Shown in pieces: positions 2,785 to 10,274 of a stretch of DNA of 64,000 nucleotides (position 1 is its first letter; each line of letters starts with the position of its first letter). Both the position numbers and the translations under genes were made by a program. Below the pieces are notes generated by a model. It searched no databases, was not told the origin of the DNA, and was given only the letters and a program-made list of their open reading frames with translations. Source of the DNA: an uncultured Bryobacterales bacterium. GTDB taxonomy: Bacteria; Acidobacteriota; Terriglobia; Bryobacterales; UBA6623. Location: assembly GCA_951813065.1 (NCBI GenBank), contig CATOTH010000002.1, forward strand, positions 310,001-374,000, written 5' to 3'.

Positions 2785-2837
2785 GTCCGGTTCAAATCCC
2801 CCCAGCGCTGGAAAGTGATCATCCCAAGCACGAATGC

Positions 2838-3240
2838 GCTCGCCTTTCACGCCTGGCGCCAGCGAGGATCGACCGCAATGAGTTTATCGAATAGTCGCGG
2901 TACTTCGCTCGGATTCCGAGCAAGCACCTGCCTTCTGGCTTCCGCGGCGATCGTTCCAGGCAGCGGAGCCAATGCCCGGCCGGACCGGGCTAACGTCGTC
3001 TTCATGCTGGCGGACGACCTGGCTACGGCAGCGTGTCGTAGTACGGCGGTGACATCCCTACTCCAAATGTCGACTCTGTCGCGCACAACGGCGTCGGCTT
3101 AGTCTCAGGGTACGTGACAGCGCCTGTGTGCAATCCCTCCCGACCGGCGCTGATGACTGGCCGCTACCAGCAGCGTTGGGGAAAAGAGCTTAACTCGCAG
3201 ACCGTGCCTCCGGAGGGCGCGGCCCGCAAGTCGCTTCCGA
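2838..3240 (+). pseudogene. Broken 5' duplicate of the downstream sulfatase gene
   Basis: This block is a near copy of 3845-4247, including the leader (gctcgcctttcacgcctgg in both copies) and the start codon (2878 here, 3885 there). It encodes the same signal peptide and the VVFMLADDL and CNPSRPALMTGRYQQRWG motifs. The copy is dead. One G is missing near 3021, which shifts the frame after MLADDL, and the codon matching a Trp in the intact gene has become TAG just downstream. The original frame is readable again from 3114 to about 3240, where similarity stops abruptly. It therefore carries only about the first 120 codons of a 481-codon gene. Confidence 0.88.
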
Positions 3241-3844
3241 CGATCGAGACAACCCATGCGGTCGTTCCGAGCGCCCACAGGTTCAGAGGGACGAGGGCGC
3301 GGTCAGCTATCCTCGCAACCACGGCGAGGTTGATCGCGAGCGTGGTCATCCCCGTGCCGCCCTTCTGCGCGATGAAGGTGGAGTGGCTATGGAACAGTGG
3401 ACGGTTGAGAATGCAGCACGTGCGGCTGTTCCGACGAGGGCAGCATCGTGATGGCGGGGGAGGTCGGAAAAGTCAGGGCGGCGGAGCAAGGCGAGCTACT
3501 GCAGGCGGTATTCGGACACGCCTCATCTCGGACTGCGAATGTCGGTCTGCGGGGTCTGCCAGAAAGAGCGCTACCGCGCCCCGATCCGGCGATTCGGCCC
3601 CGGCGAGTACAGCCCCGCTCCCCCGGAACTCGCGCATGTCCGTGTGTTCCAGTGTGGCGCGGTGCAGTTGACCCCCGCCGCGTTGGCGCGCGCCATCCGT
3701 GCGTTGCTGAGATCGGCCCGCCCGAGGTTGGTGCCGAGCAGCGAGGCATTGCGATTGCCATCCGTCCCCCTGCATCCTCAGAACATGCACGGCCGAGGAC
3801 ACCGCGCGCCGCCCGTCCCGCCCCTCGAGATGCACCACGAAATC
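3241..3844 (-). pseudogene. Pentapeptide-repeat protein remnant between the two sulfatase copies
   Basis: This 600-bp insert between the duplicated sulfatase blocks has no intact gene. On the minus strand, 3762 to 3667 reads as tandem pentapeptides of the A(D/N)LXX type (TNLGR ADLSN ARMAR ANAAG). The reading then continues in another frame from about 3670 to 3590 (ATLEH TDMRE FRGSG AVLAG). A single frameshift in a pentapeptide-repeat gene would explain this. Near 3349-3245 the same strand encodes a short hydrophobic stretch (LVPLNLWALGTTAWVVSIVG) that I cannot assign. The coordinates are those of the whole insert, not of a defined gene. Confidence 0.5.
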
Positions 3845-3884
3845 GCTCGCCTTTCACGCCTGGGGCCAGCTACGATGGACCGAA

Positions 3885-5330
3885 ATGAGTTTATCGACTA
3901 ACAGGGGTACCTCGCTCGGATTCCGCGCAAGCATCGGCCTTCTGGCTTCCGCGGCAATCGTTCTAGGCAGCGGAGCTGACGCCCAGCCGGAACGGGCCAA
4001 CGTCGTCTTTATGCTGGCGGACGACTTGGGCTACGGTAGCGTGTCGTGGTACGGCGGTGACATCCCGACTCCAAATATCGACTCTGTCGCGCACAACGGC
4101 GTCGGCTTCGTTGCGGGCTACGTGACAGCTCCGGTTTGCAATCCTTCGCGCCCTGCGCTGATGACCGGCCGCTACCAGCAACGCTGGGGGAAGGAGCTCA
4201 ACTCGCAGACCGTTCCCCCCGAGGGTGCGGCCCGCAAGTCGCTTCCCAAGAGCGAGGCAACGCTTGCCGACGCCCTCAAGGCCGCGGGCTACGCGACCGG
4301 TGCGATCGGCAAATGGCAACTCGGAATGGCTGACGGCTACCACCCGCTGGACCGCGGCTTCGACTCCTTCTTCGGGATGCCATCCGGATCGCGTTTCGTC
4401 GACCCGTCCTGGCCGAACGCGCGGATCGCGCCGGGCCACGAGGATCCCGGGGAGCCGGACGGCACGGGGCGCATCCGAGGACTCTTCCGCGGTCGGGATC
4501 CCGTGGCGATGAACGAATACCTGACGGACCGTCTCGGCCGCGAGGGCGTCGAGTTCATCAGACGCCATAAGGACGAGCCCTTCTTTCTCTACCTGGCGTT
4601 CCACGCGCCCCACGGACCAATCCAGACGATCGACAAGTACTACGAGCGGTTTCCCGGGATCGAGAACGAGACCGCCCGGATCTACGCGGCAATGATCAGC
4701 GCGCTCGACGATTGGGTCGGCGCCGTGCTAGCCGAGTTGCGCCGGCATGGATTGGAGCAGAACACGCTTGTGTTCTTTGCCAGTGACAACGGCGCCGCCA
4801 GGCAAAGCGACATCGACGGGAAACGCAACTCGCCGCTGATCGGCCACAAGCGCAACTTATACGAGGGAGGGATCCGCGTCCCCTACGCACTGCAATGGAA
4901 GGGACGCATCGAGGGAGGGGCAAGATTCGAGTCCCCAGTCAGCACGCTCGACATCTTGCCCACTGCGCTCGCCGCCGCCGGGGCTGACCCTGGTGGGCCC
5001 GCCAACCTCGACGGGGTCAACCTGCTGCCATTCCTGGAAGGCGAGCGGGCTGGTCGCCCCCACGAGTACCTGGTCTGGCGTTCCGGCCCGAATGCCGCGG
5101 TGCGCGCCGGGCCCTGGAAGCTGCTGCTGACGAGAAGCGGCTTGGCCCGACTGTACAACGTCCAGCAGGACCCCGGCGAATCAACGGATCTTTCCTCCAG
5201 CCAGCCCAGCGTGGTCGAGGACCTGCGCGAAGCGTTCGTGCGCTGGGAGCGCGACAAGGTCGCTCCGCGCAAGGGTTCCCGCAGCGTCAAGACGAAATAC
5301 AACGGCGACCTGATCGAGTGGCACATCTAG
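3885..5330 (+). CDS. Secreted arylsulfatase-family sulfatase
   Basis: The 481-residue protein belongs to the alkaline phosphatase/sulfatase superfamily and would hydrolyse sulfate esters, probably on exported or environmental polysaccharides. An N-terminal signal peptide (to about residue 33) is followed by the metal-binding start NVVFMLADDLGYG. The sulfatase signature CNPSRPALMTGR has Cys85 in the C-x-P-S-R context that a formylglycine-generating enzyme converts to formylglycine. Other family landmarks are AIGKWQLG, HAPHGPI and FFASDNGA. Length is normal for the family. The start is the ATG at 3885, conserved in position with the dead upstream duplicate. No sulfatase-maturing enzyme is encoded in the window. 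Substrate specificity cannot be read from sequence alone. Confidence 0.92.
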   Translation: MSLSTNRGTSLGFRASIGLLASAAIVLGSGADAQPERANVVFMLADDLGYGSVSWYGGDIPTPNIDSVAHNGVGFVAGYVTAPVCNPSRPALMTGRYQQRWGKELNSQTVPPEGAARKSLPKSEATLADALKAAGYATGAIGKWQLGMADGYHPLDRGFDSFFGMPSGSRFVDPSWPNARIAPGHEDPGEPDGTGRIRGLFRGRDPVAMNEYLTDRLGREGVEFIRRHKDEPFFLYLAFHAPHGPIQTIDKYYERFPGIENETARIYAAMISALDDWVGAVLAELRRHGLEQNTLVFFASDNGAARQSDIDGKRNSPLIGHKRNLYEGGIRVPYALQWKGRIEGGARFESPVSTLDILPTALAAAGADPGGPANLDGVNLLPFLEGERAGRPHEYLVWRSGPNAAVRAGPWKLLLTRSGLARLYNVQQDPGESTDLSSSQPSVVEDLREAFVRWERDKVAPRKGSRSVKTKYNGDLIEWHI

Positions 5331-5355: not shown

Positions 5356-8300
5356 CTAGAAGTCCGGAGGGGGTCGCGGGACGAGATTCTTGACAGGAAT
5401 CCTGACGGTATTGCTGATGAACAGGCCCTGGGCGATCCAGAGCGGTGTCGCCGGGTTGTCGGCGAGATCCGTATTCGTCCGCAGGTTGACCTGGTAGACC
5501 CCGACAGCGCCTTCCATCAACCCGACGAATTCCACCTGGGCGGTGCGGCCGCCAAACTGCGAGGACACGAAGTCGGCGGCGTTGAACGGCACCTTGGCGA
5601 CGGTTCCCTCGGGCGTGGGCTGGCCCGTCACCACTGCGCTCTGATTGTCGGTGAGCCCGAGGCCCGTGGCGAAGACAGCGATCAGCTCGCCCGGCACAAG
5701 CGGGTTGTCTTCCGTGATCTGCGAGAACGGCTCGTTGCCGCAGCACAGGTGCGTGCCGCCGCTCGCGAGCGTCAGCAAGACATTGGCCTCGAGTTGTTCG
5801 TTGACGTCGGCGGTGTTGGGGTCGTCCTCTGGAATCATCGTGCCTTGTGCGGCGTAAGTGATCTCGTTGCCCTGCTTGCCCGGCATGCGCGCCGTCAGAA
5901 TGATCGACGGCGGCGTGGTCCCGTCCTCGAGCACTCCGTTCTCGCGATTGGTGGTGACCTCGATGCCGGCTCCGGAAGAAACCTCGAAGCCATAGGGGAT
6001 CGTGTTGCCCTCCACCCCGAGTATGCGTGCCACGATCTGCATCCTGACCGAGCCGACCACTTCCAGGACGCGCGCCGTGACCTCGGGATCGCCGATACCC
6101 GAGTTGATCGCCCGGACCAGGATGTTGCGCACGATCAGCAGGGCAGTGCGGCTGTCCGCGACATCGGCCTCGGTCAGGGTGTAGCTATAGCTGCGGTCGC
6201 GCACGGTGATGGTCACCGTGTCGCCGGCCGTGGGCTCGCCCTCGAAGTCAAAGTCGGCGCGAGCGGAGAAGAACCCGACCGTGCCCGCAGACGCTATCAC
6301 GTCGGGGTCACCGTCCCCTGCGTTGATGAGCTCGATGAACTTGTCACGTACCTGCTCCGGGCTCTCGTCGCCGGGCGACCTGTAGTAGTATTCGCGACCG
6401 TTGATGATAATCCGGCCGTCCGCGCCCTCCTGGGTGAGCTGGAGGTTCTCGGTGTCGTTATTGGTGGGGTCGTCATCCCTGGGGCGGTCCGGGACGGTCA
6501 CGCCCACGGAGCCCTCGGCAACACCGGTGGCGTGCACGGCGAGGGCCTGCCGGGGCTCTGGCCCGTCCAAGGCGAAAAGGCCCGGCGCGGCGCGCACCGA
6601 CTGGCTGGCCCGCGCGGCGGAAGTCAGCACGCTGCCATCAGGCATGGTCCGGCGCACGTAGGTGCTGTAGCCACCGCCCTCAAGAGTCCAAGGAACCTGG
6701 AAATTGATCTGTTCCGGAGAAACCATCCGCAGCGGCGCGAGCTTTCCGTTGATCAGCACCTGCACGCCGGCCATCTCGGTCGGCAAGGCGACCCCATCGG
6801 GCGTACTCGCCGTCTCGCTGGCGAGGTCCGTGCCGAAGATCGACGCGATCGTTCCCGGCGGCAGGTCCCGGGCATCCGATCCTCCCGTCAGGCGCGACCC
6901 GGACGTGGTCGCGTCCAGCTCGACTCCGCTGTTGCGCAACTGGACCTGCGTCCAGTTCCCGCGCGGACCCTCAATCTTCGCCCTCAATTCCGCCCGGTAA
7001 CTCACCTTGCCGCGGGCCAGTGTGGGCCCCGACACCTCGATGGTCGTGGGAGAGCCGGGGGTGATGGTGATCGAGAACGGCAGGCTGTTGCCGACCGGGC
7101 CAACCTCACGATGCACCAGCTCAAGCGTCTCGATCTGGTCGATCGTGCGCTCAACGATCACCTCGGGATCCTCGCCGTTGTCCAACTCCACGATGTAGTT
7201 CAAGCGGTCGACGAAACGCTCCGGGATATCCCCTTCGGGCACGGTGAAGGAGTATTTCCTGCCATTGATATCCAAGGTCACAACGTCCCCGGGCCGCGCC
7301 TCCCCGCCGAACGTGATCGTGCCCGTCGCATGGCGGCCGACCCCCAGGGCCGGGGTCGCGGTGACAGGCAGGTCGGCAGTGTTGTTTATCAGGTCTACGA
7401 CCTTGTCGCGGACGTCCTCGGCGGTTTCGCCTTCGACCGTGGTGTAGAAGATTTCCTGATCGTCGAGCGTGATCTTGATTTCCTCACCCCCCGGCAGCAC
7501 GGGAGCCAACTGGGATTCGTCGACCTCCGTCTCGGTGTTGTCCACGGGATTTTCCTGGTCGAACTCAAGGTGGCCGCGACTGTGAATGGCGACTGCCGCC
7601 GCGTTGCGGATCCCGTCAAGCTCGATCCAGTCCTCGCCCGGGGTAAAGACCAGAACCCGGCGGGTAAACGGGTCCGTGACATACAGGTTCTGGCCGTCGT
7701 AAGCCATCGAGGAGGGCGAGCGCACGTTGCCGGGGCTCTCCGACTCGGTGAGCTGGATGAAGTCTGCCTGGCCGATCACGGAATCGGCGGCGACGCCGTT
7801 CGCGGTGGGAATCTGGTCGTAGACCATGATGCGGTCGTTGCCCGCATCGGAGACGAACAGGCTCTGCCCGACCACAAGTGCGAACCGCGGAAAACTCAGG
7901 GTGCGCTCGCAGCGTCTCGGGTAGCGCGGCACGTCCGGGTCGATCTCGCCTCGCACTGGCGGCAGGGAGATTGTGAGGAACTCGTCCGTCCGGGGAGTCT
8001 CGTTCTCGGTCAGGCTGCCGTCGTCGTCGAGCGGGCCGAGCGCCGCGCACAGGGCCTCGGCATCATTCGGCAGGCCCGAGGTGAAGTCCGGCTGGCCGAT
8101 CACCACATCCGCAGAGACATGGTTCTGGGTGGGGACGGAGTTGTAGATCAGCACCCGGTTGAATCCGAGATCAGCGACGAACATCCTGCCTTGGGAGACG
8201 GTCACGGAGACGGGATCCAGTAGCCGCTGGGCGTCGGGGTCGTACTCGCCTTGCGTGAGGTCCGCCTGGTGGCGCGTGTCGAAATCCGGCTGGCCAACGA

Positions 8301-9024
8301 CGATGTCGGGTGTCTGGCCGTTCGAAGTCGGAATGGAGTTCCAGATCAGAATCCGGCTGTTCTGGGTGTCGGCGACGAACAGCCGGCCGCCGTCCAGCCA
8401 CACGCCCTGCGGCCCACGCATGCTGGTGGCCGAGGTGCCCGGCATGTTGCTCGTGAAGTCGGCCTGCCCGACGACAACCTCGGGCGGGGTCCCGTTGGCC
8501 GTTGGAATCGATTGCCACAGCAATACGCGGTTGTTGTTCGTGTCCGCAACGGCAAGCCGGATGCCATCGCTGTGAACGGCCGACGGATTGTTCAGCCCGG
8601 GAACTTCCGGCAAGTCGGACGAAGCGGTCGTCGCAAAGCCCGCCTGGCCCAGCACGACAGAGGCGACGCCCACGCAGGCCGGGCACTTCCGCTGTTGCGG
8701 GGGCAGGACGTCTGCAGCCGGTACGAAGGTATCCACAGCGTTGTAGATGAGGATCCGATTGTTGACCGGCTGGGCTCCCAGACGGTTGCCGTCTGCGATG
8801 AAGAGCCGGTTGCCGGCGTAGGCCACACCCTGCGCGGCGCCCAGAACCGTGCGACTCGCGGTCGGGTCCTGTCGCGTGAAGCTATCCTGGCCGATCACCA
8901 GACGGGCGCCTTGGTTCTTCACCCACACCGGCTCGGCTCCGGCCCAGCCTGGCAGCAGGCCCGCAGCCAGGGCCAGAACCGTGGCGGGAAGCAGCTTGTA
9001 CTGATCGAATCGCATGCGAACCAT
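5356..9024 (-). CDS. Large secreted NHL-repeat protein with TIGR03437-type modules
   Basis: The 1222-residue protein begins with a signal peptide (MRFDQYKLLPATVLALAAGL, preceded by a possible earlier ATG). Residues about 40-470 form a six- to eight-fold repeat with recurrent VIGQPDFT/VVGQADF and RVLIYNSVPT motifs, the pattern of an NHL beta-propeller. Two segments (PGTIASIFGTDLASET near residue 720 and NPLVPGELIAVFATGLG near 1100) match the C-terminal TIGR03437 module that is expanded in Solibacter. Between and around them are four copies of a 50-60 residue module of the type DxVTIxIxxRxYxYTV. Function is unknown; a surface or matrix role is likely. Its ATG lies 2 nt beyond the stop of the SDR gene at 9027, so the two are probably cotranscribed. 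Confidence 0.85.
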   Translation of the reverse strand: MVRMRFDQYKLLPATVLALAAGLLPGWAGAEPVWVKNQGARLVIGQDSFTRQDPTASRTVLGAAQGVAYAGNRLFIADGNRLGAQPVNNRILIYNAVDTFVPAADVLPPQQRKCPACVGVASVVLGQAGFATTASSDLPEVPGLNNPSAVHSDGIRLAVADTNNNRVLLWQSIPTANGTPPEVVVGQADFTSNMPGTSATSMRGPQGVWLDGGRLFVADTQNSRILIWNSIPTSNGQTPDIVVGQPDFDTRHQADLTQGEYDPDAQRLLDPVSVTVSQGRMFVADLGFNRVLIYNSVPTQNHVSADVVIGQPDFTSGLPNDAEALCAALGPLDDDGSLTENETPRTDEFLTISLPPVRGEIDPDVPRYPRRCERTLSFPRFALVVGQSLFVSDAGNDRIMVYDQIPTANGVAADSVIGQADFIQLTESESPGNVRSPSSMAYDGQNLYVTDPFTRRVLVFTPGEDWIELDGIRNAAAVAIHSRGHLEFDQENPVDNTETEVDESQLAPVLPGGEEIKITLDDQEIFYTTVEGETAEDVRDKVVDLINNTADLPVTATPALGVGRHATGTITFGGEARPGDVVTLDINGRKYSFTVPEGDIPERFVDRLNYIVELDNGEDPEVIVERTIDQIETLELVHREVGPVGNSLPFSITITPGSPTTIEVSGPTLARGKVSYRAELRAKIEGPRGNWTQVQLRNSGVELDATTSGSRLTGGSDARDLPPGTIASIFGTDLASETASTPDGVALPTEMAGVQVLINGKLAPLRMVSPEQINFQVPWTLEGGGYSTYVRRTMPDGSVLTSAARASQSVRAAPGLFALDGPEPRQALAVHATGVAEGSVGVTVPDRPRDDDPTNNDTENLQLTQEGADGRIIINGREYYYRSPGDESPEQVRDKFIELINAGDGDPDVIASAGTVGFFSARADFDFEGEPTAGDTVTITVRDRSYSYTLTEADVADSRTALLIVRNILVRAINSGIGDPEVTARVLEVVGSVRMQIVARILGVEGNTIPYGFEVSSGAGIEVTTNRENGVLEDGTTPPSIILTARMPGKQGNEITYAAQGTMIPEDDPNTADVNEQLEANVLLTLASGGTHLCCGNEPFSQITEDNPLVPGELIAVFATGLGLTDNQSAVVTGQPTPEGTVAKVPFNAADFVSSQFGGRTAQVEFVGLMEGAVGVYQVNLRTNTDLADNPATPLWIAQGLFISNTVRIPVKNLVPRPPPDF

Positions 9025-9026
9025 CG

Positions 9027-9815
9027 CTAGACAGCCTTTACCAGCCCGCCATCGACCATCGTGGATGTGCCGGTAACATAGCTCGCCCCCTCGGAACAGA
9101 GGAACGCCACAGCGGAGGCAAATTCCGCGGGCCGCCCGACCCGGCCGAGTGCCGTCTGGCTAGCGAGCCGCTCGATCATCTCTTCCCGGGTGAGCCCGGC
9201 ATCGTCCGCGCGCCGCTGGGCGATGCTTAGCAATCGCTCCGTGGCGATCAGCCCGGGACCGGCATTGTTAAACAGGATATTCTCCGGCCCGTACTCGGCG
9301 GCGAGAGTCTTGAGCATGCCGACCACCGCCGCGCGTACACCGTTGGAGAGGATCAAGCCCTCGATCGGCTGGCGGACGGATGTGGACGTCAGGGTGACGA
9401 CGCGACCCCAGCGCTGGGCGCGCATGTCGGGAAGCACGGCCCGGATCAGAGCCCAGGAGCTCAAGAAGTTGAGCCGGAACGCCGCTGACCAATCCTCGGC
9501 ACCGAAGTCCTCGAACCGGCCGGCCGGCGGGCCGCCGGCGTTCGCCACGGCGATGCTGAACGGGCCGAGCGCGGCGCGGGCATCGGCGACGAACGCGAGC
9601 AGGGCATCCGCATCGCTCACGTCCACGGACCGGTGAAATACCTCGACACCGTGCGCGGACCGGATTGCCTCGGCTGTCGAGGCGATTGTTTGGGCGTCGC
9701 GCGAGCAGATGGCCAGCTTGCAGCCTTCCGCCGCCAGAGCCTCTGCGATCGCGCGGCCCATGCCGCGACTGGCTGCGGTCACTACCGCCGCCCGGTGCCG
9801 AATTCCAAAGTCCAT
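9027..9815 (-). CDS. SDR-family oxidoreductase with altered catalytic residues
   Basis: The 262-residue protein has the Rossmann cofactor motif TAASRGMGRAIAEAL near residue 13 and the NAGGPP motif typical of short-chain dehydrogenases. The active-site segment is unusual: where classical members read YxxxK, this protein reads SNGVRAAVVG, so Tyr is replaced by Ser and Lys by Arg. The preceding TSTSVRQP supplies the usual Ser region. A subfamily with this SNxxR pattern exists, so it is unlikely to be a sequencing error, but the chemistry may differ from a normal NAD(P)H-dependent carbonyl reductase. The C-terminus VTGTSTMVDGGLVKAV is complete. It is the first gene of a pair with the NHL/TIGR03437 gene. 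Confidence 0.85.
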   Translation of the reverse strand: MDFGIRHRAAVVTAASRGMGRAIAEALAAEGCKLAICSRDAQTIASTAEAIRSAHGVEVFHRSVDVSDADALLAFVADARAALGPFSIAVANAGGPPAGRFEDFGAEDWSAAFRLNFLSSWALIRAVLPDMRAQRWGRVVTLTSTSVRQPIEGLILSNGVRAAVVGMLKTLAAEYGPENILFNNAGPGLIATERLLSIAQRRADDAGLTREEMIERLASQTALGRVGRPAEFASAVAFLCSEGASYVTGTSTMVDGGLVKAV

Positions 9816-9914
9816 CGATTTCGTTACAACAGTCGGCTCCCCCAGCTATGCTGCTGGTGTGCGGAACGGGGCGCGGGGGATCGTCTCTTCGGTTTTCCTT
9901 TAGCAAGTACGCAA

Positions 9915-10274
9915 TCAGGAGCCCGACGGGTTCCGAAGGTAGCTGTCGTCCCCTTGGATCCAGTCCTGCCTGACGGGCTGGAACACGTCCATCGCGAGCG
10001 AATCCTCCAAGGCTTCCACGCGGTGCGGCTCATGGGAAGGGATTTCCACCAGGTCTCCGGCGCGAGCCGTGACCTCGCAGTCGTCGAACTGAAACAGCAG
10101 GGCGCCCTCGAGCACGTGGCTGATCTGCTCGTTCTCGTGGCTGTGGCGGGGCACGACCGCGCCCTTCCTCAGAGCGATCCTGGCGGTCGTCATGCGTTTG
10201 CTGTGGACGACCCTGCGGGTTGCGGTTTCGCTGAGCGGCTCAAGCTCCACCTGGTTCCAAGAATGCAGTTTCAT
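9915..10274 (-). CDS. Small cupin-domain protein
   Basis: The 119-residue protein is a single cupin barrel. Motif 1 is visible as PRHSHENEQISHVLEG (His-x-His followed by Glu) and motif 2 as GDLVEIPSHEPHRVEAL, together giving the usual metal ligands. Such proteins bind small carboxylates or sugars or act as isomerases or dioxygenases; nothing here narrows that down. It lies upstream of, and on the same strand as, the SDR/NHL pair with a 99-bp gap, so it may share their transcript. The start is the ATG at 10274. Confidence 0.82.
   Translation of the reverse strand: MKLHSWNQVELEPLSETATRRVVHSKRMTTARIALRKGAVVPRHSHENEQISHVLEGALLFQFDDCEVTARAGDLVEIPSHEPHRVEALEDSLAMDVFQPVRQDWIQGDDSYLRNPSGS

Follow-up and report, generated by a model that had tools for sequence, protein, structure and literature searches.

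The window, our term for the whole 64,000-nucleotide stretch of DNA that was analyzed, encodes a 1222-residue protein, P0001, in which module profile matches show the same anatomy at two separate sites: the N-terminal half of a module, then a complete second copy of that module, then the C-terminal half of the first. The same anatomy recurs in the orthologs of this genome's clade, which comprises two families, and sister-family orthologs carry one module at each site. We consider it very probable that the module of this clade is interrupted at the same loop (about profile positions 61 to 72) by a second complete copy at both sites. The two outer halves are predicted to fold together, and the resulting units are probably arms on a secreted scaffold. 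Because the single and nested states occur in sister families, with the same break point and twice per protein, the insertion step can be studied directly. The module also links a near-universal and probably secreted protein of the Bryobacterales to a domain of phage tail sheaths.

Organization of the gene and its product

P0001 is encoded on the minus strand (Table 1), a point on which an earlier sequence-only reading of this DNA was silent. The span highlighted by that reading, 5749-7520, comprises both module sites and the first half of TIGR03437. NHL repeats, which had also been noted, are confirmed by a Pfam scan, in which PF01436 matches the N-terminal part of the protein with 41.7 bits against a gathering score of 20. 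Site 1 lies between the NHL region and TIGR03437, and site 2 lies between the two TIGR03437 halves. On the plus strand, an 824-codon open frame (5749-8223) runs antisense to the NHL gene and is probably a codon-bias shadow.

Table 1. Features of the P0001 gene, with positions in the window and residue numbers of P0001. HMM ranges refer to the module profile.
Feature	Position	Strand	Evidence
Whole gene, probably secreted NHL / module / TIGR03437 protein P0001, 1222 aa	5356..9024	-	Open reading frame and translation
Likely signal peptide, about residues 1-30	8935..9024	-	Sequence read by eye
NHL-repeat region, likely beta-propeller, about residues 31-485	7570..8934	-	PF01436, 8.7e-11
Site 1, outer module N-half, residues 513-560	7345..7488	-	HMM 16-64, i-E 1.8e-7; also whole-genome search
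Site 1, inner complete module, residues 565-673	7006..7332	-	HMM 2-108, i-E 1.2e-14; phrog_165; predicted sheath extension domain fold, Z 11.9
Site 1, outer module C-half, residues 678-718	6871..6993	-	HMM 69-110, i-E 7.8e-4
TIGR03437 first half, profile 12-121	6508..6864	-	Profile search; model rows here at Z about 8 (CGTase and chains like it)
Site 2, outer module N-half, residues 866-914	6283..6429	-	HMM 15-63, i-E 3.2e-11
Site 2, inner complete module, residues 923-1027	5944..6258	-	HMM 5-101, i-E 1.6e-21
Site 2, outer module C-half, residues 1040-1092 (HMM-matched 1040-1060)	5749..5907	-	HMM 68-88, i-E 5.8e-4
Vicinal cysteine pair C1094-C1095 (LCCGN), module / TIGR03437 junction	5740..5745	-	Ortholog alignment
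TIGR03437 second half, profile 98-225	5389..5787	-	Profile search of genome

The repeated module is probably interrupted by a complete copy of itself

The sequence-only reading had described a fourfold repeat of a 50-60 residue unit, with copies starting near residues 515, 575, 875, and 936. All four exist in P0001, and self-alignment places the internal repeat far above chance: residues 501-725 align to residues 851-1100 with a score of 174, compared with 38.4 ± 6.3 for shuffled sequences, none of which (0/500) scored as high. Five of the six pairings of single copies likewise exceed all 500 shuffles; the pairing of 505-556 with 557-722 was equalled or exceeded by 6 of 500. The unit, however, had been measured too short, as the real module spans about 105-110 residues. 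What had been recognized correctly were four N-terminal halves, whereas the C-terminal halves had been overlooked and the whole is not a plain series. In a search of the window's entire genome with the module, all four matches fall within the P0001 gene.

The anatomy was read with a module HMM trained solely on 38 single modules from 19 short-form proteins of the sister family. At both sites, every nested-type protein (20/20, P0001 included) has the order N-half, full module, C-half. Four further stretches in this set, with i-E values of 0.46 or worse, were disregarded, and some of the outer C-halves counted here are weak HMM matches, with i-E values up to 0.024. The nested reading was repeated on loci taken from named records, where it was obtained in 19/19 cases; as these loci come from the same 19 genomes, they represent a second reading and no new data. 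The break point in them is uniform: in 38/38 nests, the N-half ends at profile positions 61-66 and the C-half starts at 62-72. Eleven of the 20 nested-type genomes belong to one genus.

We considered whether these proteins simply carry four ordinary tandem repeats of a short 50-60 residue unit, as originally described. The four N-halves do resemble one another, and genuine head-to-tail arrays of full modules occur in a more distant family of the class (f8), whose NHL-TIGR03437 protein holds two to six of them inside the second TIGR03437 half at 6/6 loci (L192-L197; a seventh f8 genome lies outside this count). In that family, however, full modules just succeed one another, whereas in all nested-type proteins both sites follow the chain order N, full, C and share their break point, which makes four tandem repeats a highly improbable description of P0001. 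Because the f8 arrays occupy a third place, they also indicate that TIGR03437 proteins carry the module at several places.

Predicted folding of the outer halves

Structural models were obtained with AlphaFold2 for residues 500-725, which contain site 1 (pLDDT 82.9, pTM 0.66), and for the larger region of residues 480-1216 (pLDDT 75.3, pTM 0.41). If the module is interrupted by its own copy, a single target domain is expected to align with both outer halves. Some rows for the site 1 model are of this type, with far fewer aligned residues than the stretch they extend over. Escherichia coli FliD (5h5v_C) aligns outer half to outer half over 82 residues (model residues 14-218, 3.0 Å, Z 6.8), as do 5h5w_B (Z 6.4) and Campylobacter flagellin 6x80 (Z 6.2), and the sheath of phage Pa193 (9b42_S) extends across both outer halves over 92 residues (model residues 7-215, 3.4 Å, Z 5.3); Z scores of 5.3-6.8 may reflect no more than a common arrangement. 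Our prediction is that the outer halves most probably combine into a single folded domain.

The sequence order N1 N2 C1 C2 would by itself be identical if the halves paired as N1-C1 and N2-C2, producing two intertwined domains with exchanged strands. Such an interleaved pair has a partial parallel in Pseudomonas aeruginosa PAO1 flagellin, whose D2 and D3 are described in passages of PMC10256154 as one bilobal structure with a shared strand and thus not as a clean insertion. The larger model of P0001 also contains a long strand, at model residues 75-95, that passes over the border between lobes. We nevertheless judge interleaving to be improbable, since the module profile is continuous through the inner copy, about 103-105 residues of the inner copies can be aligned with single sheath domains, and in some rows one target domain covers both outer halves. 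We therefore continue to read each site as an outer module that is interrupted by a complete inner one.

Flagellar proteins provide parallels to this arrangement. Foldseek ranks flagellin D2/D3 first for site 1 (8erm, E 1.8e-5, rmsd 12.9 Å), and the site 1 model also gives FliD rows at Z 5.5-7.7 and a P. aeruginosa flagellin row (4nx9) at Z 8.7. No flagellin core family, which would correspond to the helical D0/D1 flagellar core, was found in P0001 with Pfam or NCBIfam. According to passages of the respective papers, D3 of FliD is a loop insertion within D2 (PMC8533109), Helicobacter pylori FliD has additional D4 and D5 domains of similar fold (PMC8306008), and P. aeruginosa flagellin of type A, the smaller type, has a single outer domain whose counterpart in the two-lobed type B (8erm) is D3 (PMC10256154). 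In FliD D2/D3 and in the modules of P0001 alike (20/20 nested-type proteins), one domain sits in a loop of a similar one; unlike the flagellar D2/D3 pair, the chain of P0001 shows the nesting twice. Nested architectures are described in a survey of domain insertions, whose passages seen here do not mention insertion within a family (PMC13114784). Listings and abstract openings yielded no paper on this NHL-TIGR03437 protein. Given the FliD and flagellin precedents, the principle is known, and the new part is the twice-nested case with single forms in a sister group.

The module resembles the extension domain of phage tail sheaths

The sequence-only reading had hinted at phage tails, and here comparisons of both profile and predicted fold bear it out. 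P0001 matches the tail-sheath profile phrog_165 at 7.2e-11, with the best stretch at positions 100-188 of 493. Site 1 alone matches at 1.2e-10, and site 2 alone gave no phrog_165 row in the PHROG scan. Most single modules (36/38) match the same profile at E ≤ 0.1, the best at 2.1e-13, and the module profile searched against solved structures reaches phage sheaths at 4e-4 to 0.01. Pfam PF17481 (Phage_sheath_domII) matches 6/38 modules at E ≤ 1 (best 0.0016) and does not match P0001, and Flagellin_IN gives one weak match among the 38 modules (3.7e-4). By these searches, the module is without a strong model of its own in the copies of Pfam and NCBIfam that were used.

In the predicted structures, the inner copies fall on sheath domains. 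That of site 1 aligns with the sheath of phage Milano (8fqc) over 104 residues (Z 11.9, 2.3 Å, 20% identity, chain residues 91-202) and with that of phage Mu (9khy) at Z 11.4; further fold matches of the models include T7 gp12-type nozzles, T4 gp11, and flagellar proteins. As described in passages of PMC10811340, residues 91-203 of Milano gp20 are the sheath extension domain, and the sheath body domain consists of residues 24-90 and 204-380. The extension domain of the Milano sheath is thus likewise an insert, within the sheath body domain. P0001 differs in that the domain belongs to a probably secreted NHL/TIGR03437 protein and is nested in a copy of itself. The sheath body and handshake domains were absent from P0001 in scans with Pfam, NCBIfam, and PHROG, which returned NHL and TIGR03437.

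Searches for the module in phages gave no confirmed relatives: phage records contained no tblastn match to either a single module or the module/TIGR03437 part, and a scan of viral contigs with a close module alignment produced 65 pattern matches, none of which was confirmed. The repeat of the ice adhesin MpAFP RII (4p99) matches the profile weakly, with an E value of 9.7e-6 for the whole four-repeat chain, i-E values of about 0.2 for each repeat, and good agreement over the first 35 of 111 positions only.

One TIGR03437 domain is split by the second site

The NCBIfam scan finds TIGR03437 in P0001 at 1.3e-41 and 142.8 bits, against a curated cut-off of 29.05. Where the sequence-only reading had counted two TIGR03437-like modules, the matches are two pieces of one profile (Table 1), and the gap of about 240 residues between them is occupied by site 2. 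From the profile coordinates, P0001 has one TIGR03437 domain in two pieces, interrupted by the second module pair. Searching the window's genome with TIGR03437 gave 12 matches, two of which are these pieces; among the other ten, nine span most of the profile unbroken and one covers positions 10-107 only. When the halves were compared with each other by hhalign, they aligned in matching register with a probability of 3.5% and an E value of 0.012, which is suggestive only. The cysteine pair at the junction of module and TIGR03437 is invariant in 13/13 aligned orthologs, and CC is found in 75/76 full-length relatives (LCCxN); the two residues possibly form a vicinal disulfide.

Distribution of the long and short forms

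Among 100 related genomes, the gene is present nearly end to end in the family of the window's genome (f1) and in both genomes of family f2, and a shorter form is found in family f3 of the same order. We compared 19 long-form and 20 short-form regions; one locus read in the wrong frame (L071) was excluded from the module set. In the long form, site 1 is 204-224 and site 2 is 204-235 residues long; the corresponding lengths in the short form, where each site holds one module, are about 95-107 and 79-98. In named records of the sister family, one full module per site was found at 57/61 loci, and the other 4 are incomplete and lie outside the count of single-type proteins; some of these 61 short-form loci come from genomes of the HMM training set. 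In one sister-family ortholog (L198, open frame 1221 aa), the N-half of the site 2 module contains an insert of another kind, about 60 residues long.

The module occurs in 250/257 Bryobacterales genomes, in 88/299 genomes of the class (13 of them outside Bryobacterales), and in 6/247 genomes drawn from the phylum (3 of them outside the class). In aligned orthologs it stands beside TIGR03437, a combination that the sequence-only reading had thought unusual. With the module in nearly all Bryobacterales genomes, the pairing is not unusual there; elsewhere in the Acidobacteriota, the module is rare. By title, most of the named records are Bryobacterales, Bryobacteraceae, Solibacteraceae, Terriglobia, or Acidobacteria MAGs. 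Two records titled Bordetella parapertussis (L155) and Acidimicrobiia (L138) carry a Bryobacterales-type gene with one module per site, and their labels are probably wrong.

History of the inner copies

To follow the history of the copies, we used a module tree that includes 15 of the 57 sister proteins and a tree of the host protein (NHL region) that includes 29. Six classes of module, four from the nested form (outer and inner, sites 1 and 2) and one from each site of the short form, are separate single groups in the module tree. There, the site 2 outer module clusters with the site 2 module of the sister family with support of 98/88, a grouping that suggests the outer copy is the old resident. 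Approximately unbiased (AU) tests rejected neither a clade of inner 1 with inner 2 (p 0.44) nor outer 1 with sister site 1 (p 0.44), and weakly rejected outer 1 with outer 2 (p 0.041). Compared half by half for their resident-type score, outer N-halves exceed inner N-halves in 7/19 and 2/19 proteins, and outer C-halves exceed inner C-halves in 13/19 and 13/19; many outer N-halves are shorter, and this depresses their scores. These half-by-half scores do not clearly mark the outer copy as the resident.

The NHL-region tree shows the nested type as sister to the single type, each group with an SH-aLRT of 94, and the tandem family is the outgroup, so that gain in one or loss in the other fits equally. 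It is conceivable that the nested form is ancestral for Bryobacterales and that the inner copies of both sites were lost in the sister family, a scenario that concerns history only and leaves the anatomy as it is. Each type forming one group, with the direction left unfixed by the tree, is compatible with this course of events. Loss would, however, require two clean excisions at the same loop, a form nested at one site only is absent among the 20 nested-type and 57 full-length single-type proteins, and the outgroup family lacks the nested form in 6 loci. An ancestral nested form therefore appears unlikely to us, and gain of the inner copies appears likelier. P0001 and its sister orthologs would represent two stages of domain growth by self-insertion.

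A more general and speculative idea, on balance rather doubtful, is that domains of the sheath-extension and flagellin-D2 type are prone to recursion, their loop between N- and C-halves accepting a copy of the domain itself. Nesting at both sites in one clade would then reflect parallel insertion or copying between sites, and the same process may be a route by which the stacked domains of flagellin and FliD arose. If this is true, the paired single and nested orthologs are a natural experiment on domain growth by self-insertion.

Proposed role and gene neighborhood

P0001 is most likely a secreted or surface scaffold with the modules as projecting arms. The inner copy would fold as a second lobe that projects from the loop of the outer domain, much as D3 projects from D2 in FliD, and the result would be two two-lobed arms on a secreted scaffold. 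By lengthening or widening these arms, the nested copies might enlarge the exposed surface or space its parts for contact with matrix, host, or neighboring cells. An adhesive or matrix role is a tentative suggestion that we draw from the signal peptide, as read by eye, and from domains of extracellular type.

Upstream of the NHL gene, in the region 9027-10274 of the minus strand, a short-chain dehydrogenase (SDR) gene ends 2 nt before its start, with a cupin gene further upstream, an operon-like layout. A conserved operon was considered and rejected, because the largest cluster of neighbors covers 17/79 loci and SDR and cupin genes adjoin the gene in 7 loci each. On the other side of the NHL gene, positions 2829-3264 and 3836-4272 are direct copies with 86-87% identity. 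An intact sulfatase gene lies at 3885-5330 (PF00884, 5.2e-59), and the upstream copy (2829-3264) looks like a partial duplication of its 5' end that has since decayed.
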